From: a virus
DNA: 37,781 bases
Reading direction: 5' to 3' (one strand)
Virus record (IMG/VR): IMGVR_UViG_3300042462_000858
Span: 1 to 37,781 of that record
The notes beneath the pieces were generated by a model. That model saw only the letters and a program-made list of their open reading frames with translations, was not told the DNA's origin and did not search any database. Both the position numbers and the translations under genes were made by a program. Numbering within the stretch: the first letter of the stretch is position 1; every line of letters starts with the position of its first letter. Positions 1,033 to 13,322 of the stretch are shown here, piece by piece.

Positions 1033-4000
1033 TTATAGACTGAGTTCCACCATTGTGTGATTAACTGCATCGAAATTATTATCTCTATTTGTGAACGTCC
1101 CGTCAAAGAAGGGTAGCGCGGCTGTCGATTCAAAGTTCAAGTTGCTGGACCATGTGTTTTCTGGGGCTGTTGGCTGTCCTGTTGAGGTGTTGATGAAACG
1201 CACAAAAATCGGACTTGCTCCTGTCGCATTTTTTACGCCTGCGTTTCTTCCGTCCTCTGTCAGATCCTCCAAGAAAAACTTTGTGTCAAGCCTCTGCTCC
1301 AGCATGTCACGTAATTGTCCGTACCTGCTTCTATTGAACACAGCTGAGGAGTACGTTGGTAATCCGCTGATAACGCCATACTTCCAGCCACGAATGAGAG
1401 GACCGAATTGAAAATCTATGTGCCCTATTCCGCTGGCAGGAATGGTCTTGTGCTCTTCTCTAAAGAGGGGCTGCTGCGGACGACCAATTCTATAATCAGG
1501 GTACACTGTTGGCAAAGACATATTTCCATCACCAAATCCATATAGCACCTTTGCCATATCGCTATGGTCCATGCTAGATGTCACGTAATGAAACTTATAA
1601 AGTCCCGTAGAGGGCTGAAAAATGCTTACACCTTTGCTGAGGTCAGCATCACACATGACCTTGATGGATTCGTCCCCATCCCTCTGGCATATTAATAGAT
1701 GATCAATCTTTTTGTACTTTAGCTCTGTCGATGTTATTGGATCTATGCCAGCAGAAAACTCTGTAATAAAAGTAGAAGCGATCCGTTGTCGACGCTGAGC
1801 GCCCGAGTACCTCGACTCAAACGGAAAACTGTACCCCCAGCTTCTGTCGTTCATGGCGTCAAAATCAGGCAGATCAGCCTGAGAATCCAGGAATATCACG
1901 CCGTAAGACTTATCCCTGCTATAAGAACCAGTCAGCGTCTGAAAGATTTGATCTGGGTTGCTTAAGTGGTGTATTGCTTTTCCATTTGCAGATAGACACG
2001 CGTTGAAGTCTGGCATGAGCGAATCGTAAAATCTCTCGATGTTAGATGAAATTCTTAGAGTCCTCTGATTCCCGACTTTTTCATAAAGGGGTTGCAGCCT
2101 CTGCGACTTTGAGCTATTCAGTAGATAATCGTTACCAGGAGGGAGATACTCATGATTTCTCGCGTCTATCCTGCTTGACACACTTCCGCGTGTCGGACCG
2201 AACGAGACTCCATAAACCGACTTTGTGACAGAAGATCCGCTTACTGTATACAGCACTCGCTTTGCGTCAAAAGAGAACATTGATCCAGTTACATAGCTGT
2301 CTGTAGATGTCCCATAAAAGTTATCATCATACTCCACCTGAAATTGATCGCAGACAGGCTCCATGCCTATCGACTCATGAACAAAATTTGAGTCTAAAGG
2401 CTGATTTAGCGTATCATGAAATTCTTTCCCGGTCTTTAGAAGACTACCGTAAAGTGTTATTTTAATAGAACCAGTGTTTATCCAAGCATCATGGCGTAAA
2501 CCCTGGCGCCAATAATCTACGGGTACATCAGCAATGGGGAAGTGTTCGTTCGTGTGAAGTGTAGGCCTGTTTTTAGAAATGCCAAGCACCAACTTGTCGC
2601 CGGGCAAGAGCAGATACGGTGAAGGTATCGACTTATCAACTGGAATGGCATACTGAAAGAAAGATTGAAATTCTGGGTTTATGCTTGTATCAAGCACACT
2701 CTTCAGTGCAACCGGAAAATCATCAAAGCTAGAAGAGACGAAAAGCGGATTCTGCACCCTTCGATTTTTTGCTGTCTGATATGTGATGTGCTCTTTTCCA
2801 AACACGGACCTACCGCTGATGTTGTTTCCGCGCGAATCTCTAGAGAAAGGATTTATGCTCTTCACATTCGAGAAGCCAATAAAACCCTTACCACCGCTGA
2901 ACGCTGCTCGAGCATATATGTCAATGTCTGGCGATGTCATGAAAGACTTTACGAAATTTGCACGGATATCAATGTAGCCTGTTGGTTCTTCAAACCCGGT
3001 TGCCCTCATCTCTTGCCTTAAGACAACTCCGTTAGAGACACCAGCGACGGTCTGCAAGCGTACAGATCCAGTGAATGTATTGTTTCCATCAGGGTGCACG
3101 ACAGCGGATGGCGTCGAATCGTACTTCACAAATCCCTCAGGCTCAAACAGCCATATCGGATAAATGTTGCTGCTGCTGTCTTTTACCCATGATTGCCTCA
3201 CGGCCACGTTACCTGAATTGTCCCCCACAGGTATCACAGTTCCGGTCAGGATCAGGTCTCTGTGTGTAGTGTGCCCATTAGACACCTGATTAAACAGAGA
3301 TACTGTTATGGCAGGTCCAGCAAAATCGAAAGTCTCATTTGAGACGCCGTGGTCTGCAGTGGTGGAGCTGCAGACACCTATTGGAGTGCTTGAAGTAGTC
3401 CTGTCTTCAAACCAGCCTTGGCCAAAAATGAAAGGTATTTCAAAGACTGCTTTTTCTAAAACAAAGGGCTGATTTATCGGTATGGATATCTTCTCGTCGC
3501 CGCTCGCTTCATAGTCTGGGTTTAGCTGGACATTTTTTTCGTATGTCTTGGTCAAGAGATCAAGCGACGCTGTGTTTTGAAACCATGGACCTGAGTTGTG
3601 CCCGAATTCTGCATCTGAGCTCCAATACGAGCTCATCGGGCCTGGGTAAGACCCTGAAGCTACAATGTTTCCGATAGGCCCGAAACCCCGTGCATCTTCA
3701 GGCCAATAAAGCCCCTCGGTTTGATACGCTACAGAGGCTGATGCGTTCATTATGTCTGAAGGAGCTTGGCGGATCTGTGGGAAGAACATTCCCTTGAGTT
3801 TTCTGTTGTAATAATATATCGCAGATCCCGTCTCTAACATGCGAAGCTTATTCTGGACGGGTAACTCAAGCTTAAGCTGCGTCTTGGATTTTAAAGAAAA
3901 TGTGAGACTATCTCCAAACAACTCAATTGATGAGCCCGTCAAATAATACCCACCGGGGTCTTGCTCCGGCCTGTCATGGTCAGTGAATGGTTTCACATAT

Positions 4001-5295
4001 TCGACAGGCACGTTACCAATAAACTCATCTGCGACTGATTTTGAGACACTCGCAAGTGCCTCAAAGTCGCCAAAAAGATTCTGCCTGTCAGGTGCGCCAG
4101 CCTCTGTATCTGCATAATCCCGCGGTAAAGTTGTCGGATAATCTGCGAGACGAGAACGTCCATACACCAAGGCACGACGGTCGTCATACATGCTAAGATA
4201 CGTACCCAATCTTTGTACATCTCCAGTACGAGCAATCAGTGGATACGTTCGTCTTGAATCGGACTTGACCAGGTCTTTTCTTGGTAGTACTTTTCTTCTG
4301 TTCACTGGCGGCGCAAAGGTCATCACACAACAAAAAAGATCTTGACCGGGCCAATTTGCGATCCTATTAGCAAGAATAGCGGGCGGGGGCGGAGACGTCC
4401 CTGGGTCTACGCTTGAGACAAACAGGGTAAAGTTATACGGTAAAGTTGTGGACGAGTTAGTGTCTGAGTATGCGGGATCGTAACTATAACCGCCGTACTT
4501 GCTAGGGGTCCTGACCCTGTCAAGCGGATGCCCAAGGCCTTTTGATAGGTCACGGAACCGCCAGCCTAAGACGTCAGGACTATCATTGACAAAGATGCCT
4601 ATTGTCGCGCCTTCCTCTACGGCGTTAGACCCGAAAGAGTTGATCGTCTTTCTCGTGCCGTACCTGAACTCTATGTGCCCCGATTCGTATACAACAACCT
4701 CGAACGTAATGATGGAGCTTGCGTACAGGTCAGCGCCTGCATTCGAAAAAGACCTCCACCTGACGACAAGACACCTTCTGCCAGAAGGATCGACCGTGTT
4801 GACATATTTCAACGCAGAAGTGACCTCGTTGTACGAGGTCGGAGGAACGTCGATGCCTTGACTGATTCGTAATTTTTCGTCGTCTGTCAGTGCCAGCGTC
4901 TTCAAGACGTTGTACCCGTTTCGCAGGCTATCCATCCATGGGCACAGAAGGACTCCCCCTGTTTCAAATCTGTCGTTTACGTAGAGGACCTCTGATATTA
5001 TGTAGTCTTCCTCATCAAACGTCCCTGTGTCACTCTTTTCTCGTAAGACCAAATAACCGTTGGTGGATGCGACAAACCTGTCGTATGTTTTTTCGTTAAA
5101 TCTGAAGTCGAACCCGATGGGTGTCGTCTCGCTTAAAGCTTCAGCAGTGGCACCTTTGCCGGCGTCACCTGGGAACGCCAACATTGCCGCTGACGCGACG
5201 GGGAAAAGCCGCGCCTCTTGGCCGACGACACGGGTAAAGACATACTTGTCGAAATCTTGTGTGGGCGGTGCCCTGAGTTCTTTTGAAGTTGGCAT
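1033..5295 (-). CDS. Large virion protein with adhesin-like N-terminal beta-sandwich domain
   Basis: This is a 1420-aa protein starting at ATG 5295, with GGAGG about 12 bases upstream. Residues of about 60-215 read like a beta-sandwich domain found in bacterial secreted adhesins. It has a FDFRFNEKTYDRF strand, the STNGY signature (77-81), a CPWMD turn near 118, a CLVVRWRSF strand near 174 and ESGHIEFRYG near 208. The rest is Ser/Thr/Asn-rich, low in Lys and apparently beta-rich, with a short proline run (PPPPA) near 300. There is no signal peptide or membrane segment, as expected for a virion protein. The start overlaps the stop of the upstream 274-aa gene (TGATG), so translation is probably coupled. 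The size and the collagen-like neighbour suggest a baseplate, fibre or decoration component that contacts the host. I do not recognise the central and C-terminal parts. Confidence 0.8.
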   Translation of the reverse strand: MPTSKELRAPPTQDFDKYVFTRVVGQEARLFPVASAAMLAFPGDAGKGATAEALSETTPIGFDFRFNEKTYDRFVASTNGYLVLREKSDTGTFDEEDYIISEVLYVNDRFETGGVLLCPWMDSLRNGYNVLKTLALTDDEKLRISQGIDVPPTSYNEVTSALKYVNTVDPSGRRCLVVRWRSFSNAGADLYASSIITFEVVVYESGHIEFRYGTRKTINSFGSNAVEEGATIGIFVNDSPDVLGWRFRDLSKGLGHPLDRVRTPSKYGGYSYDPAYSDTNSSTTLPYNFTLFVSSVDPGTSPPPPAILANRIANWPGQDLFCCVMTFAPPVNRRKVLPRKDLVKSDSRRTYPLIARTGDVQRLGTYLSMYDDRRALVYGRSRLADYPTTLPRDYADTEAGAPDRQNLFGDFEALASVSKSVADEFIGNVPVEYVKPFTDHDRPEQDPGGYYLTGSSIELFGDSLTFSLKSKTQLKLELPVQNKLRMLETGSAIYYYNRKLKGMFFPQIRQAPSDIMNASASVAYQTEGLYWPEDARGFGPIGNIVASGSYPGPMSSYWSSDAEFGHNSGPWFQNTASLDLLTKTYEKNVQLNPDYEASGDEKISIPINQPFVLEKAVFEIPFIFGQGWFEDRTTSSTPIGVCSSTTADHGVSNETFDFAGPAITVSLFNQVSNGHTTHRDLILTGTVIPVGDNSGNVAVRQSWVKDSSSNIYPIWLFEPEGFVKYDSTPSAVVHPDGNNTFTGSVRLQTVAGVSNGVVLRQEMRATGFEEPTGYIDIRANFVKSFMTSPDIDIYARAAFSGGKGFIGFSNVKSINPFSRDSRGNNISGRSVFGKEHITYQTAKNRRVQNPLFVSSSFDDFPVALKSVLDTSINPEFQSFFQYAIPVDKSIPSPYLLLPGDKLVLGISKNRPTLHTNEHFPIADVPVDYWRQGLRHDAWINTGSIKITLYGSLLKTGKEFHDTLNQPLDSNFVHESIGMEPVCDQFQVEYDDNFYGTSTDSYVTGSMFSFDAKRVLYTVSGSSVTKSVYGVSFGPTRGSVSSRIDARNHEYLPPGNDYLLNSSKSQRLQPLYEKVGNQRTLRISSNIERFYDSLMPDFNACLSANGKAIHHLSNPDQIFQTLTGSYSRDKSYGVIFLDSQADLPDFDAMNDRSWGYSFPFESRYSGAQRRQRIASTFITEFSAGIDPITSTELKYKKIDHLLICQRDGDESIKVMCDADLSKGVSIFQPSTGLYKFHYVTSSMDHSDMAKVLYGFGDGNMSLPTVYPDYRIGRPQQPLFREEHKTIPASGIGHIDFQFGPLIRGWKYGVISGLPTYSSAVFNRSRYGQLRDMLEQRLDTKFFLEDLTEDGRNAGVKNATGASPIFVRFINTSTGQPTAPENTWSSNLNFESTAALPFFDGTFTNRDNNFDAVNHTMVELSL

Positions 5296-6119
5296 CAGTA
5301 TGTCATGCCTCCGAATGCAATCGAATCTGTCCCGACCTTGACGTTACCGTCATAATCCCAACCTGCCGTGTAAGACCTGTGTGTGTTTGGGACAAAATTT
5401 TCTGTTGTTGGGCGCATAAACCTCAGCATGAAAGACATGTCATTGTCTGCAAAGCCGACATCAAGTAAAAATGCGTCATTGAACGGCTTGATTCTGACAG
5501 ATTCATTTTTAAAATATCCACGATCGTCGTATACCACAATGCTGCGGGTCGGATCGAAATAATCGAGTTGAACGACAGGACACGCACCTCTATAAAGATC
5601 ATCGGATCCCGCTGCCAAACTGGCTTTTACGCTGTGGGCAACGAAAGGTGTTTCTAACGATCGAAGGCTCACGACCTCTCTTATCGTAAGGGGCTCAATA
5701 ATGCCGTCCAAATTGTCTGTCGTAACCTCGTCATTGTCATCTATGATAAACGGGATGGTGAACACATCAGCATAGATGTAAGAGTAATAGTCTTGAACTT
5801 TTATAAACTTAATGGGATCAAACTTGTCGTTGTCCATGTAGGCATTGCTATGGGCATCGTGGTAGATGTCCATTCCAAACCTGTTTTGACGTAAGACGTG
5901 GTTAGGTTCACCTGAATGAATCTTCACGGTTCCCATGTCATAATGCTTCTGAAGAGTGAGCTCGACGCCTTGACGATACCCGTCTATCAATTTTGTGTCG
6001 ATATTTGCCCTGACTTCTCCGCTTACACGAGACGGATTTGTCAAACGTTGCGGCGGAGGCGGAGGTCCTTCATCAAAGTAAGCTGCTTTCACAATGTGTG
6101 TCGCTGTGTGATTGACCAT
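5295..6119 (-). CDS. Unrecognised virion-type protein, 274 aa
   Basis: The ATG at 6119 is preceded by AAGGA at six bases, a good ribosome site. The protein is soluble and acidic, with a proline run near residues 19-23 and many aromatic, Asp and Asn residues (for example DYYSYIYADVF). No catalytic motif, signal peptide or membrane segment is visible. It is the first gene of the left-end transcription unit, after a terminator at 6200-6234, and its stop overlaps the start of the 1420-aa gene. A tail or fibre accessory role is inferred from this position only. Confidence 0.75.
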   Translation of the reverse strand: MVNHTATHIVKAAYFDEGPPPPPQRLTNPSRVSGEVRANIDTKLIDGYRQGVELTLQKHYDMGTVKIHSGEPNHVLRQNRFGMDIYHDAHSNAYMDNDKFDPIKFIKVQDYYSYIYADVFTIPFIIDDNDEVTTDNLDGIIEPLTIREVVSLRSLETPFVAHSVKASLAAGSDDLYRGACPVVQLDYFDPTRSIVVYDDRGYFKNESVRIKPFNDAFLLDVGFADNDMSFMLRFMRPTTENFVPNTHRSYTAGWDYDGNVKVGTDSIAFGGMTY

Positions 6120-7963: not shown

Positions 7964-8422
7964 ATGAACATATTCGTTTTATCGGAAGACCCCGCTGAAG
8001 CAGCTGGCATGATGTGCGACAAACACGTGCTAAAAATGATCATCGAAAGTGGGCAAATGCTGTGCGCAGCTCACGAACCCGGAACTGCGCCGTGGAAACG
8101 CACGCACTACAATCACCCATGCACAGTCTGGGCTCGGTCGACGACATCAAACTACAATTGGCTTGTCGAACACGGGCTGGCGCTCTGCCGTGAATACACA
8201 AAGCGATACGGGAAGCTGCATAAATCAGAGGAGGTAATCCAATGGTGCAAAAAAATCGTGCCTCCAAGTGTGCCCGAGGGTCCCTTGACACCATTCGCGA
8301 TTGCCATAAAGGACCCCAAACATCACCTCAACTCAGCGGTGGAGTCCTACAGGGCATACTATAAAGCAGACAAGGCCAGGTTTGCGAAATGGAAAAACAC
8401 AAGCCCACCAGATTGGTGGTGA
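7964..8422 (+). CDS. Conserved phage protein of the MNIFVL-CDKH type, only rightward gene
   Basis: This 152-aa protein opens with MNIFVLSEDPAEAAGMMCDK followed by HVLKMIIESGQML. This matches a family I recall from many large phages as a conserved protein of unknown activity. Other conserved-looking points are THYNHPCTVWAR near residue 47, NYNWLVEHGLALC near 64 and KRYGKLHKSE near 80. His, Cys, Asp and Trp residues are frequent, so an enzyme is plausible, but I cannot assign a reaction. It is the sole plus-strand gene, and its stop faces the leftward CxxCxxCC gene with two bases between. The start has no Shine-Dalgarno but a TATAAT just upstream. The different strand suggests separate, perhaps early, expression. 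Confidence 0.8.
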   Translation: MNIFVLSEDPAEAAGMMCDKHVLKMIIESGQMLCAAHEPGTAPWKRTHYNHPCTVWARSTTSNYNWLVEHGLALCREYTKRYGKLHKSEEVIQWCKKIVPPSVPEGPLTPFAIAIKDPKHHLNSAVESYRAYYKADKARFAKWKNTSPPDWW

Positions 8423-8424
8423 AA

Positions 8425-8859
8425 TTACTTGTGTTGCATCATCTGTCGAAACGCAGGACTTCCAATGCAATGGTGCTTACCCTCAATCTCATAAAACAGA
8501 TTGTTGCCCGTCTCTAGTGCCCACTGGACCAGCCAGTTTAAACTTGACACTGTCAGCTTGCCCCCGGCCTCTGCCACTTCGTAGTGTGTCAATTCCGGCT
8601 TCATCGGATGCACAACTCTTGTGATGATGACGCCAGTCAGATCCGGTCTCATCCACATCGGAAACGTGTCCTCGGCTTTCCATGCACAATTGTAGCTTCG
8701 GCATGTCCCGGGCCGCTCTTCATAGATGGTGCACTTACCGCTCGCCAAGAAGAAGCAGTGCTTTCCTGGGTGCATTTGGTGGCCGTTTATATTTGCAGAC
8801 AACCAACCCTCACAGCACTTGGTGCAATCTCCACACTCTCTCAATTTTTGTTCAGACAT
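8425..8859 (-). CDS. CxxCxxCC (YkgJ-type) cysteine-cluster protein, 144 aa
   Basis: Cysteines at 9, 12, 15 and 16 form the C-x2-C-x2-C-C cluster of the YkgJ family, joined by C35, C43, C53 and C58 in the second half (SGKCTIYEERPGTCRSYNC). The family is thought to bind zinc or an iron-sulfur cluster; its reaction is not established and phage copies are common. GGAAG precedes the ATG at 8859. The gene overlaps the end of the HNH gene by eight bases (ATGTCTGA), so the two are probably translated together. A link to the neighbouring nucleases is possible but not shown. Confidence 0.82.
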   Translation of the reverse strand: MSEQKLRECGDCTKCCEGWLSANINGHQMHPGKHCFFLASGKCTIYEERPGTCRSYNCAWKAEDTFPMWMRPDLTGVIITRVVHPMKPELTHYEVAEAGGKLTVSSLNWLVQWALETGNNLFYEIEGKHHCIGSPAFRQMMQHK

Positions 8860-9184
8860 TCTTCCACCTCAAGATTTTTTGGTTGTCATGTACCCGCCAG
8901 TCCTCCTTCCCTAAAGGAGGTGCCTCGCCCTTTCTGTGCCACAGCAGGGCCCTTCCCATAAATGCGGTGGAGGAATATACTCCCAAAATAACGATGTCCC
9001 CAGCATGCGTAAGATCATGACAAACATGACACAACACAGCCAAGTTGCTGTTGTCGTTCGTCGATCGTGGATCGCAACGAGGAATGATGTGGTGGATGTT
9101 AAGCGCGTGAGGATTATCGAACCCACACACTTCGCACTTATCTTTTAGCAACTTGGGCTGCCCACGCTTTCGACGAATAACCAT
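8852..9184 (-). CDS. HNH endonuclease, 110 aa
   Basis: The frame extends to a TTG at 9199, but the ATG at 9184 gives a standard protein beginning MVIRRKRGQP. Neither start has a Shine-Dalgarno. The HNH core is complete: C17-x2-C20, the HH pair at 31-32 (IHHIIPRC), N47 in NSNLAVLC, then C52-x2-C55-H56 and H60. Thus one zinc is held by two CxxC pairs and the beta-beta-alpha-metal active site is intact. In phages such proteins are free-standing homing nucleases or packaging nicking enzymes. It sits between the methyltransferase fusion and the CxxCxxCC gene, not next to the terminase, which favours a homing or restriction-like role. The C-terminal part (GKEDWRVHDNQKI) follows the core. Confidence 0.87.
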   Translation of the reverse strand: MVIRRKRGQPKLLKDKCEVCGFDNPHALNIHHIIPRCDPRSTNDNSNLAVLCHVCHDLTHAGDIVILGVYSSTAFMGRALLWHRKGEAPPLGKEDWRVHDNQKILRWKNV

Positions 9185-9188
9185 GTGA

Positions 9189-9209
9189 GCAATGTACAAA
9201 AAACATTGC
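9189..9209 (-). promoter_or_regulatory. Hairpin between the fusion gene and the HNH gene
   Basis: A 7-bp inverted repeat, GCAATGT (9189-9195) and ACATTGC (9203-9209), encloses a 7-base loop. In the leftward transcript it starts five bases after the methyltransferase stop and ends four bases before the HNH ATG at 9184. It would cover the site where a ribosome binds, so it may restrain HNH translation, or act as a weak terminator. No U-tract follows it. Confidence 0.5.
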
Positions 9210-9213
9210 CAAG

Positions 9214-11244
9214 TTAAATCTTACGACGAAAAACCATGAACAGCTCGTGTCGAGAATCCCCAGAAGAGCCGGTACCACGAACAAAGTGATCTCTTCCAAG
9301 CGACATACGTAGCTCATCGACGACAAAAAGACCTGCGGCTTCAGCACACTCGATCGTCACGCCCCTCAGCGATTGTGGGACATTGAGCACAAGGCTTCCG
9401 CTTGACTTCAGGCCATGAGCCGCACCCTGCAGCGTCTTAACATAATAGCTGGACTTCCAACTATCGAAGTCTGGATAATCTCTCCAGCACTGACCGGGCT
9501 CGTCGTAGTACTGCTCTGCATCAAAGTAAGGGGGAGATGTAAAGACAAGGTCCAGAGAATCAACCTCTGGCGTCCATACTTCAGAACCAGACCGGATCAC
9601 TTGTATGTCCAACCCAGGCTTTTCTTGCATGATCTCTTTCGAGACGGCCCCTGCATCTCTACACATGTGAGAGCATGGATCTGTTCCAATGTATGTCCCT
9701 CTCTCAAACACGCTGGCAAAGCCCAACATCCTGGCAGAAAACCCGATGGACGGATCCCACACAACAGGCCGCTCTAATCCGCCGCAAAATCTGCGGTAGA
9801 TGTACGAAGCCCACACGGGCTTAAACCACGACACTTTATTACGCTGCACAATGAAACCATTCCTCACATCTCTCATGGCGATGTTGAATGTCTCATTCGT
9901 TGTGACCTTCTCACCACTCATCAATGAGTACTCATAAGGTTTCGAATTATTCAAACCCAACCTGTAAGACAGCACAGACCGCAAGGTTTTATCGACGTTA
10001 AACATCTTGGAAGGCCCGCCGTCGACGTCCCAAAACGACCTCACACGTGACTTTAACCAGTCACTTCCATGTGGGGACATGCTGAACGTATCAGACGATT
10101 CAAAGAGAGATGACATGACTTCTTGAATCGCTTTATCAGAAGGCGGATAAAACCAGCCCCAGTAGTCCACGTGTGCCCTCAGAAACTCTTCCACAATTGG
10201 TAGAATTGATTCCTTCAGGTAATTTTTGCCGTCGTCTCCAAGGGCCATCCTGATCACGGAGTCACGCGTGATAAGCGGAGTCGTCTCCCCCAACTTGAAA
10301 GTACCTTCTTTGATAACAACGCCACCTTTGACGACGTGGTAGGCCAAGCGCTCTAGATCAGATATGCCGTTGATGGAGCCTGGATCTATATCGGCGGAGA
10401 TCCTAAGCAAGTTGAGGCCCCTGTCTCGAGCTATCCTGTTCTTCTTCAGATCATTGGTCAGGTTCTTGATCTGGTCGGGTTTCCAGTCCAGATGCCTGTC
10501 TAAACCGTGCCAGTATGTACCGTCAAACTCCACGATGGTTTTTGTCGATGGAATCCACACGTCAGCATTCCACGTCTTCTCCCCGAAGTTAAACCACACC
10601 GACTGGGCAATCTCAATCCCGCATTCTCTTAACCTATTTGCAAACTCATCTTCGGCTTTTGATGTGTAGGTCGACTCTCTCCTCATGTTGGCAAGGCCAA
10701 TCTTCCTACCAAATTCAGGTGTGAACACCTTCTCACGGCGGGCGTCGCCCTCAACTCCCTCCCATGACTTTATGCGTGCGACGTGCTGCTTTTCTTTGTA
10801 TGCGCTATCTGACCATAGCTCTTTTCTGATCTCAGAAAGATGCTGCTTCACCTCGTCCTTAGCAAGGCCGATGCTTACTCTATCGCTTATCTTTTTTGCG
10901 ATGACACCTTTCTTTTCTTTATAAGATCGACGAATGGCTTCATTTCTTTTTTCGACCTGCTCACGCGTGAATTCAGGCTGCTTCGCACGAAAACCCGACT
11001 TGTTGTGGCCTGTGATGTAAGAATTGAACTGGTATTTTGTCTCGTGCCACTCAACTTTCCCGCCACATCCGCAACTGCATTCAGGGACGTTGCCCTGCAG
11101 AAAATGCTTCAACACATAGTTCTTCAACCCACCGACATGCGGATGAGATCTCGTCATGTGATTTCCTAACGAACGTCGATTGCTGCAGGTACGTCCGCAC
11201 TCTATGCAATTTTGTTCTACGTTATCAATGCCAGTTTTGGTCAT
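9214..11244 (-). CDS. Zinc-finger / Vsr-like endonuclease / DNA methyltransferase fusion, 676 aa
   Basis: Three parts are visible. (1) A C2H2 finger with C13-x2-C16-x12-H29-x4-H34, then a CSCGC cluster (56-60) and GH at 79-80, a DNA-binding arrangement seen in phage homing-type nucleases. (2) A Vsr-type nuclease core at about 195-285: E198/E200, D228 in WNADVWIP, VEFDGTYWHG (238-247) and the closing helix KKNRIARDRGLNLLRIS, matching the EDxHD/Vsr fold. (3) A C-terminal adenine/cytosine N-methyltransferase, with SAM motif I DPSIGFSARMLGF (497-509), an acidic TDP near 521-523 and catalytic motif IV TSPPYF (569-574). Nuclease and methylase in one chain could be a self-protecting restriction-like or homing enzyme; this is inference. 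The frame is open to a GTG at 11271 with no Shine-Dalgarno; I chose the first ATG. Hairpin terminators isolate it from gp23 upstream. Confidence 0.85.
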   Translation of the reverse strand: MTKTGIDNVEQNCIECGRTCSNRRSLGNHMTRSHPHVGGLKNYVLKHFLQGNVPECSCGCGGKVEWHETKYQFNSYITGHNKSGFRAKQPEFTREQVEKRNEAIRRSYKEKKGVIAKKISDRVSIGLAKDEVKQHLSEIRKELWSDSAYKEKQHVARIKSWEGVEGDARREKVFTPEFGRKIGLANMRRESTYTSKAEDEFANRLRECGIEIAQSVWFNFGEKTWNADVWIPSTKTIVEFDGTYWHGLDRHLDWKPDQIKNLTNDLKKNRIARDRGLNLLRISADIDPGSINGISDLERLAYHVVKGGVVIKEGTFKLGETTPLITRDSVIRMALGDDGKNYLKESILPIVEEFLRAHVDYWGWFYPPSDKAIQEVMSSLFESSDTFSMSPHGSDWLKSRVRSFWDVDGGPSKMFNVDKTLRSVLSYRLGLNNSKPYEYSLMSGEKVTTNETFNIAMRDVRNGFIVQRNKVSWFKPVWASYIYRRFCGGLERPVVWDPSIGFSARMLGFASVFERGTYIGTDPCSHMCRDAGAVSKEIMQEKPGLDIQVIRSGSEVWTPEVDSLDLVFTSPPYFDAEQYYDEPGQCWRDYPDFDSWKSSYYVKTLQGAAHGLKSSGSLVLNVPQSLRGVTIECAEAAGLFVVDELRMSLGRDHFVRGTGSSGDSRHELFMVFRRKI

Positions 11245-11304
11245 GTACAAATATACCACATGCACAATCACGTGTTTAAGCCCAGCAACGTTGAGAAAAC
11301 AAAA

Positions 11305-11356: not shown

Positions 11357-11380
11357 AAGGGCCACTTTTTAGTGGCCCTT
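11357..11380 (-). terminator. Main intrinsic terminator after the major capsid gene
   Basis: A perfect 10-bp GC-rich stem, AAGGGCCACT and AGTGGCCCTT, has a four-base loop and is followed by TTTT in the leftward transcript. It lies 32 bases past the gp23 stop. The position fits strong transcription ending after the capsid gene. Confidence 0.9.
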
Positions 11381-11411: not shown

Positions 11412-13322
11412 TCATATCACGTTCATGTCGAGGACGGTGACGGTCCCGTAAAAGTCGCTACGGATGACCTTCTTGCCGTACCTTGTCATAACGCCCTTGC
11501 GCGGCGTGAAGTCCTCAGGAGCGAAGATCGTCGGTGTGACGATGAGCGGAACGTAAGGAGCATACACGTAGCCGGTCTCGAGGTAGCTGCCGCCCTTGTA
11601 GCCGATGAGGATCTTGTTACGTGCGAAGTAAGGATCCTTGTAGACCGTGAAGCGGTTCGAGACAGTACCGATGGCCTCGGCGCCGATTGTGAACGGCGAA
11701 CCGACCTGGCCCTCACCGTCGATCGAGAACTTCGGCTTGTAGAGGACCGACGACTCGAGGATGGTGCAGACGTCCGGACCGGTGACCAAGAAGTTGGCCG
11801 AGCCGCGGAGTGTCTTACGGTGGATGGTGTTGGCAACGTCGATGATTGTCTCGACGAGGGTCTCGTACCACTCACGAACTGTACCGGTGAACTGCGGTCC
11901 GATCTGGAACGAGTTCGCGAGGCTCTGACGCTCGCCGGTGACCTTGTTGACGAAGCGACCTGGGCTGCGCGACCAGTAGTAGTTGGCGCCGTTGGCTGTC
12001 GTCACGAGGTCGCTCAGGATCTCGCGGTCGATCTCGAGGGCGATCTGCTCTGAGAGGATCGACGTGAGCTCAACCTCGGCGTCCATCGAGTGATAGGCGT
12101 TGAGGTCCTGTGCGAGCTCGGGCGACCAACGAGCACGAAGCTTGCGGGTCGTGGCCGTGATGGCGATCGACTCGATCTTGATGTCGATCTCGGGGATCAC
12201 AGGGGTCGGGGTGCCAGTGGCTGCACCGAAGTCCGACTCAAACGACGGGACCGTGAGGACCGCGCCTGTTGCACCGGCGTCGCCTGCCACGTTGCTTGCA
12301 ACGTCAGACTTGACGTAACCGATGTTACCTGTTCCGGCTGTGAGAACCGAAAGCCCGTCGGCACCCTTGATCAACATCTGGACGTAGTCACCGTTCAGCG
12401 CGTTGGGCGTGAAGGCAAGGGTTGAGCCTGTGCCTGTCAAAGTACCGCGGCGGTTGAGGCGGCGAAGGTTGAGAACTCCCTTACCTGACTGGTAAGCCTC
12501 GCCCCACTCCGTTGCATTGGCACCGAAGCCTGAGACGACGGCAAGCTGATCAACAGCGAGGAGGTCCATGCTTGCGGGGAGCAAGCTTGTCTTAACGTAG
12601 ACAAAAAGTGCATCAAGCTCGTTCAAAGCAAGGGCATTCTCAAGCTGCGGATCATAGCCCAGCAGACGAGCGTTTGTGCCGCTGAAGGACGTGAGCGAAC
12701 CGAGGACCGTGCCGTCCGACCATGCGCCATTGGCACCGGCATATGAACCTGAGAAGACGTTTGCACCAGCAAAGTTGACCTGGGCCGTGCCATGAACCTT
12801 CGAGTAACCGACGTTGACGAGATCGTACATGCCGCCAGCCGCGAGCGATCCTGACTGGATACCCTTGCCTGTGGGGGCGTTGTAGATCGACTGACCGCGC
12901 TGGTATGTGGCTGACGTGCCGCCTGTCAGATCTTCGCCCTGATCGCCGCCGACGTTCGAGCCGTAGGTGTAATCTAGGTAGAAGATAAGACCCGAGGGGA
13001 GCGACATCGGCTGGATCGAGACGAGCTCGTTGGCGACGAGGCCGCCGAACACACGACGAACGATCGGGAACGCGATGTTGCTGAAGCCCTGGATCTGACC
13101 TGACGAAGCGAGATTGCCGCCGCCTGTCGAGAGTGAGTTGGACTCCTTGAGGACCTGAGCTGCCTGGTTCTCCAGGAGCTGTGACATGGTCTCACGACGA
13201 ACGCCGTCGAGACCGCGGAGAAGGCCTGTACGGCTCCACTTCTCCACCAAACGGGCACGCTCAGCACCGACGTGCCTCTCGCGAATGCCCTGAGCTAACT
13301 GATCTAGTGTAAACTGCTTCAT
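11412..13322 (-). CDS. 23: Major capsid protein (T4 gp23-like)
   Basis: At 636 aa it is longer than T4 gp23 (521 aa). The start at 13322 has GGAG eight bases upstream. The gp23 pattern is clear: LLENQAAQVLKES near 49-61, IVRRVFGGLVANELVSIQPM near 88-107, then LPSGLIFYLDYTYG. L58-K59-E60 before S61 fits the prohead protease rule and lies where T4 gp23 is cut (after E65), so about 60 residues are probably removed on head maturation. The extra length probably sits in an insertion domain in the middle (Gly/Ala/Ser-rich, about 160-380). The gene is visibly richer in G+C, with C/G-ending codons (GTC, ATC, GAC, AAG), than the genes around it, as expected for the most highly expressed gene. It follows the scaffold gene by 44 bases. 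Confidence 0.95.
   Translation of the reverse strand: MKQFTLDQLAQGIRERHVGAERARLVEKWSRTGLLRGLDGVRRETMSQLLENQAAQVLKESNSLSTGGGNLASSGQIQGFSNIAFPIVRRVFGGLVANELVSIQPMSLPSGLIFYLDYTYGSNVGGDQGEDLTGGTSATYQRGQSIYNAPTGKGIQSGSLAAGGMYDLVNVGYSKVHGTAQVNFAGANVFSGSYAGANGAWSDGTVLGSLTSFSGTNARLLGYDPQLENALALNELDALFVYVKTSLLPASMDLLAVDQLAVVSGFGANATEWGEAYQSGKGVLNLRRLNRRGTLTGTGSTLAFTPNALNGDYVQMLIKGADGLSVLTAGTGNIGYVKSDVASNVAGDAGATGAVLTVPSFESDFGAATGTPTPVIPEIDIKIESIAITATTRKLRARWSPELAQDLNAYHSMDAEVELTSILSEQIALEIDREILSDLVTTANGANYYWSRSPGRFVNKVTGERQSLANSFQIGPQFTGTVREWYETLVETIIDVANTIHRKTLRGSANFLVTGPDVCTILESSVLYKPKFSIDGEGQVGSPFTIGAEAIGTVSNRFTVYKDPYFARNKILIGYKGGSYLETGYVYAPYVPLIVTPTIFAPEDFTPRKGVMTRYGKKVIRSDFYGTVTVLDMNVI

Follow-up and report, generated by a model that had tools for sequence, protein, structure and literature searches.

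What would a phage gain from a single protein that joins a DNA-binding finger, a nuclease and a methyltransferase (MT), encoded directly behind its capsid gene? This question is raised by one ORF of the window, i.e., the whole 37.8-kb virus fragment that was analysed, which we read as a T4-like phage because the gene preceding this ORF encodes a gp23 major capsid protein. Our preferred answer, with a probability of slightly over one half (about 0.55), is that the protein is a free-standing EDxHD (Vsr-fold) homing endonuclease which carries its own protective DNA methyltransferase in the same chain.

Architecture of the fusion protein

The features of the locus are collected in Table 1, in which, as in the text, residues are numbered from the GTG codon that opens the frame. 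The ATG at residue 10 (position 11244), giving a protein of 676 aa, is the likely start and was preferred over GTG since the relatives begin there (MTKTGIDNVEQ or MNKNGIDNVEQ, as aligned with L066). An earlier, sequence-only reading of this DNA used numbers lower by 9, and had described a C2H2 finger (its C13/C16/H29/H34), a VEFDGTYWHG nuclease core and two methylase motifs within one uninterrupted frame. All of these elements were recovered: the finger corresponds to C22/C25/H38/H43, the core occupies residues 247-256, and the motifs DPSIGFSAR and FTSPPYF lie at residues 506 and 577, respectively.

Table 1. Features of the fusion gene and its surroundings (window coordinates)
Feature	Position	Strand	Basis or remark
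gp23-type major capsid protein gene, upstream neighbour of the fusion	11412..13322	(-)	Pfam Gp23 1.3e-75
Hairpin resembling an intrinsic terminator, separating gp23 from the fusion	11357..11380	(-)	
Whole fusion ORF	9214..11271	(-)	685 aa from GTG; uninterrupted frame
C2H2-type zinc finger, residues 20-45 (C22, C25, H38, H43)	11137..11214	(-)	Common to solo homing endonucleases of the gp23 slot
Further conserved module with cysteines, CxCGCG...YITGHN, residues 63-93	10993..11085	(-)	Common to other slot nucleases; low model confidence there
Predicted Vsr-fold / EDxHD nuclease domain, residues 200-315	10327..10674	(-)	Fold comparison, sequence profile, invariant columns
Nuclease core VEFDGTYWHG, residues 247-256 (E248, D250, G251, H255; D237 upstream)	10504..10533	(-)	Invariant columns
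MT N-terminal part, mostly helical, residues 345-470	9862..10239	(-)	Present also in stand-alone MTs
SAM-dependent methyltransferase core, residues 480-685	9217..9834	(-)	Sequence profiles, predicted structure
MT motif I DPSIGFSAR (residue 506)	9730..9756	(-)	Motif
MT motif IV FTSPPYF (residue 577)	9523..9543	(-)	SPPY type, as in N4-cytosine methylases
HNH gene downstream of the fusion	8852..9199	(-)	Pfam HNH 1.2e-7

No whole-protein family above the cut-off was found in Pfam or NCBIfam, and PADLOC returned weak methyltransferase matches only. A single-sequence scan of viral contigs with the fusion protein yielded zero relatives; these surfaced through alignments. The sequence-only reading had proposed a search for the same architecture in other phages, and the order of Vsr-type nuclease and MT was indeed found in 8 further loci: L066, L115/L116, L008 (whose contig ends within the MT), L002 (the 484-kb phage LR756508.1), L186, L233, L234 and L235. 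This recurrence excludes chance as the source of the domain order, and an assembly chimaera was ruled out on the same grounds. The finger by itself gives a Pfam E-value of 0.025, below the Pfam cut-off, and its four ligands are kept in the near relatives and in two solo nucleases (L100 and L109). The structure model of the fusion, built from 70 related sequences, has a mean pLDDT of 86.6.

Taken jointly, VIA Z-scores, a sequence profile and invariant residues predict that the nuclease half has the Vsr fold and is of the EDxHD type, in agreement with the Vsr-like nuclease proposed earlier. Residues D237, E248, D250, G251 and H255 are invariant in the 15 relatives aligned, and they include the acidic/histidine core (D237, E248, D250, H255) of EDxHD homing endonucleases, a described family of Vsr-fold enzymes (PMC3943268). 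Among solved structures, the nuclease profile matches the homing endonuclease I-Bth0305I best (3r3p; E 0.021). A model of the nuclease domain alone gives VIA Z-scores of 10.1 to Vsr (1cw0, the best match) and 8.6 to I-Bth0305I, with type IIG enzymes far lower (DrdV, 5.3; BpuSI, 4.4); in Foldseek alone the nuclease stays below significance (E 0.007-0.016). The VIA list for the full-length model consists of MTases only, and the fact that Vsr is missing from it is uninformative. I-Bth0305I and other EDxHD homing endonucleases thus resemble the window protein in nuclease fold, conserved residues, multi-domain build and finger-like DNA-binding parts. However, I-Bth0305I is a homing endonuclease only (PMC3943268), whereas the fusion adds a complete MT of ~340 aa and its gene is free-standing, behind gp23.

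The MT half is a predicted SAM-dependent amino-methyltransferase. This METHYLTRANSFERASE contains motif I and a motif IV (TSPPYF) that fits the pattern [DNS][PI]P[YF], and it has a predicted class I MTase fold, matched by known MTase folds with Z-scores of up to 18.7. Compared with solved structures, the MT profile finds the modification methylase 2zie best (E 4e-4), with N4-cytosine MTases at 0.009; a SAM methyltransferase, as postulated from the sequence, is thereby supported. By precedent, the SPPY motif suggests N4-cytosine as the base that would be marked. Since the structural neighbours of this half include RNA MTases, DNA is its presumed substrate.

Motif I of the fusion is slightly unusual (GFSAR instead of GFGGR) and SIPY replaces SPPY in five relatives (L002, L186, L233, L234 and L235), as might be expected if the MT half were catalytically idle and served as a DNA- or SAM-binding regulatory domain of the nuclease. 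We regard this as highly improbable, given that both motifs are retained in each complete fusion examined, that the MT outlives the nuclease in some alleles (see below), and that MT dN/dS values in close pairs are 0.07-0.19. Over the two halves, dN/dS was 0.12-0.19 in the L066/L008 pair and 0.07-0.32 in pairs of LAGLIDADG-MT fusions; wherever close intact pairs exist, the nuclease and MT halves are both under purifying selection.

Nuclease partners of the MT family and the capsid-gene slot

The same MT was found fused to nucleases of three further kinds: (i) LAGLIDADG_2 or LAGLIDADG_3 (L003, L160, L253, L265, L296, L299, L323, L352 and others), (ii) a TnsA-like PD-(D/E)XK endonuclease (L300), and (iii) by its opposite end, NUMOD4 and HNH (HNH_3; L120). 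A tree of the MTs places the HNH fusion inside the Vsr group and joins the PD-(D/E)XK fusion to one LAGLIDADG fusion (SH-aLRT 97-98 for both). Because well-supported nodes mix nuclease types, partner nucleases must have been swapped around the MT; the deep MT branches are weakly supported, so that any number of fusion events is provisional.

Stand-alone members of the family (~330-390 aa; phrog_12517) occur in Vibrio, Staphylococcus and Bacteroides phages (e.g., Vibrio phage 2.058.O and Staphylococcus phage Alsa) and in many uncultured phages. They share the MT domain of the fusions, including its N-terminal part, but are without a nuclease, and the sampled copies do not adjoin capsid genes. 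Tandem pairs of stand-alone MTs (~540 and 373-386 aa) are frequent in uncultured phages (L151, L158, L169, L178 and others, at about 2900-5600). In two further loci (L373:4941-6416 and L384:2523-4046) the MT family has other fusion partners, namely a domain of T4 RNA ligase 1 (Pfam 2.2e-10) and C-terminal repeats resembling the DNA-binding repeats of homing endonucleases.

The fusion genes share a location, which, like the four nuclease partners of the MT, is absent from the sequence-only reading. Genes for the Vsr and PD-(D/E)XK fusions are placed behind gp23, and those for the LAGLIDADG fusions follow, wherever upstream sequence is present, the gene of a head protein from a different family (phrog_2522). 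After removal of near-copies (65% identity), and considering only fusions with visible upstream sequence, a capsid gene of one of these two unrelated lineages preceded 24 of 25 fusions vs. 3 of 51 stand-alone MTs by no more than 5 kb, as judged with capsid profiles that were partly built from fusion-bearing loci (Fisher p ~2e-15, for related loci that are not independent). The one exception is the HNH fusion (L120), near which no known capsid gene was recognised. The three capsid-side stand-alone MTs all fall inside a LAGLIDADG-MT clade; for two at least, homing-type genes are neighbours. Upstream of 20 stand-alone MTs, a search with PHROGs revealed no head proteins and several replication genes.

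Several other arrangements were observed around these slots. Two different LAGLIDADG-MT fusions stand in tandem behind a single phrog_2522-like capsid gene (L391:995-2965 and L391:3894-5933). In three loci (L296:2123-3762, L160:1896-3713 and L297:1979-3787) the phrog_2522 capsid gene, whose ORF begins at profile position 71-162, is seemingly split by a separate endonuclease ORF, perhaps an intron, with the fusion behind it. In two loci (L368:4246-5993 and L359:1820-5960), capsid-slot MT genes with homing-type genes beside them start a few bases before the preceding gene ends; these may be unfused nuclease-MT pairs. Close behind the capsid slot of the window, a likely gene on the opposite strand (7964-8422) encodes a predicted pyrimidine dimer DNA glycosylase (Pfam 1.5e-8; phrog_624, 9.5e-55), which several relatives also have.

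One chain with a nuclease and an amino-MT is also the build of type IIG enzymes (BpuSI, DrdV), and no complete fusion has lost either MT motif; the window protein could thus be a type IIG-like phage restriction-modification enzyme, which would recognise a short site, methylate the carrier genome everywhere and degrade competing phage or host DNA. We consider this distinctly unlikely. Type IIG enzymes act in cellular defence at short sites and their nuclease belongs to another branch, with a weak fold match to a domain that is nearest to Vsr and I-Bth0305I. Moreover, the finger modules are common to solo homing nucleases behind gp23, and the prokaryote genome collection yielded 32 loci without a single fusion. 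The type IIG layout comprises a PD-(D/E)XK nuclease, a connector, the MT and a target-recognition domain; no domain of the last kind was identified in the fusion.

Homing signs and nuclease-less alleles

Homing endonucleases of several types lie directly behind gp23 in dozens of relatives, which marks this slot as a conserved hot spot. An empty allele was also found: in L043, gp23 is followed by the HNH gene of the window and the next gene, without the fusion. The divergence of the fusion is incongruent with that of gp23. Between L066 and L008, the fusion is the closer of the two (amino acid likeness 0.85-0.94, pS 0.21-0.46 vs. 0.75 and pS 0.60 for gp23), and between the window and L066 it is the more distant (0.55-0.64, pS 0.80-0.88 vs. 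0.78 and pS 0.52), which indicates a gene with its own history, as for a mobile gene. The sequence-only reading had left the choice between a restriction-like and a homing system; the hot spot and the empty site point to a homing rather than an ordinary restriction setting. An intron- or intein-encoded homing endonuclease was ruled out, as gp23 is intact upstream, the hairpin lies in between and no Rfam intron was detected. A homing gene that invaded an MT gene was likewise dismissed, given that the nuclease half also occurs by itself behind the capsid gene.

Solo nucleases of the same family, without MT, occupy the gp23 slot in L100 and L109, which implies that protection by the MT is not obligatory. 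Also behind gp23 (L008:2588-3529, L075:8981-9958 and others) are TnsA-like PD-(D/E)XK nucleases with the finger and the CxCGCG/GHN module of the window protein; one DNA-binding module is thus combined with different nuclease folds in the same slot. Another homing-type gene of this slot (~475 aa; L044:2590-4017 and similar ORFs in L039, L080, L092, L094, L097 and L112) encodes a finger, NUMOD3 and a Vsr-like core (ECHGLYWHS), with another domain of ~200 aa at the C-terminus.

Three copies in the gp23 slot have lost the nuclease and retained the MT motifs: L075 holds a nuclease remnant, in which the core DGTYWH has become DEINCH, in L119 the nuclease is deleted behind an intact finger, and in L117 it is gone. 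Other homing nucleases lie near these MT-only alleles, so the MT may answer to those. Retention of the MT where the nuclease is lost would also be expected if the MT were a payload against host restriction (or a means of late-gene tuning) with which a homing nuclease hitch-hikes, the two having no common target. Stand-alone relatives of the MT are common in phages, where they are located in replication regions, and phage methylases guarding against restriction are known (PMC4190342). We nevertheless hold this explanation to be rather unlikely, as it leaves unexplained why a single MT family, located elsewhere when it stands alone, is fused to nucleases of four families at the capsid slot.

A proposed homing endonuclease with its own methylase

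In the reading that we prefer, a homing endonuclease with a protective MT, the two halves are inferred to act on different genomes, the nuclease cutting those of rival phages close to the capsid gene and the MT shielding the site of the carrier itself. The finger modules would direct the protein to a site within the capsid gene or close to it; the nuclease would cut this putative site in co-infecting phages that are without the element, and repair of the cut phage would copy the element in. The cleavage sites of free-standing homing endonucleases lie hundreds to thousands of bases away from the genes for these enzymes (PMC2988022), and with cleavage at such a distance the insertion of the element leaves the target site of the carrier undestroyed. 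The MT would methylate the putative site in the carrier, which would then be protected, while unmarked rivals would be cut and converted; nuclease-dead, MT-intact alleles would be resistant alleles. Such linked protection would account for one MT with four nuclease families, for the capsid slot and for the MT-only alleles. Extended to the whole set, the proposal is that homing-modification elements form a selfish gene class, situated behind the major capsid genes of two or more unrelated phage lineages. Its homing endonucleases, from four catalytic families, would have taken the same MT as built-in immunity, and nuclease-dead, MT-only copies would persist as resistant alleles. We judge the chances of this broader proposal to be even.

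Known systems resemble parts of this arrangement. The free-standing homing endonucleases of T4 (seg/mob; e.g., segD, between genes 23 and 24) are also intergenic and beside conserved late genes, the gp23 slot included (PMC2988022), but are GIY-YIG or HNH nucleases without a methyltransferase. In the open-access full texts searched, neither a fusion between a homing endonuclease and a DNA MT nor an enzyme with this domain order was described, in keeping with the sequence-only reading, whose author knew of no such enzyme. The nearest there are the type IIG enzymes and a Slx1-like GIY-YIG nuclease with an N-terminal MTase from Lactobacillales (PMC1564403); the latter is also a nuclease-MT single chain outside classical restriction, but it is cellular, has a nuclease of another family and is not a homing element. 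The fusion may represent a selfish element of a new class.

One intron homing endonuclease is known to help phages compete during co-infection (PMC11620839). Members of the MT family also occur in phages whose Vibrio and Staphylococcus hosts are in culture, which helps to make its activity testable. For a free-standing homing endonuclease, whose gene does not interrupt the target, sequence differences are generally given as the reason why the enzyme spares its own genome. If the homing enzyme included a methylase, this would be a restriction-like answer to self-cutting, linking homing genes with restriction-modification, both of them kinds of selfish DNA; it would also be a gene drive that occurs in nature together with its resistance allele, and a route of phage competition in shared hosts. 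The association of one MT family with four unrelated nuclease kinds, at the same spot in distant phages, suggests selfish cutters which guard the genome that carries them in the manner of restriction systems.
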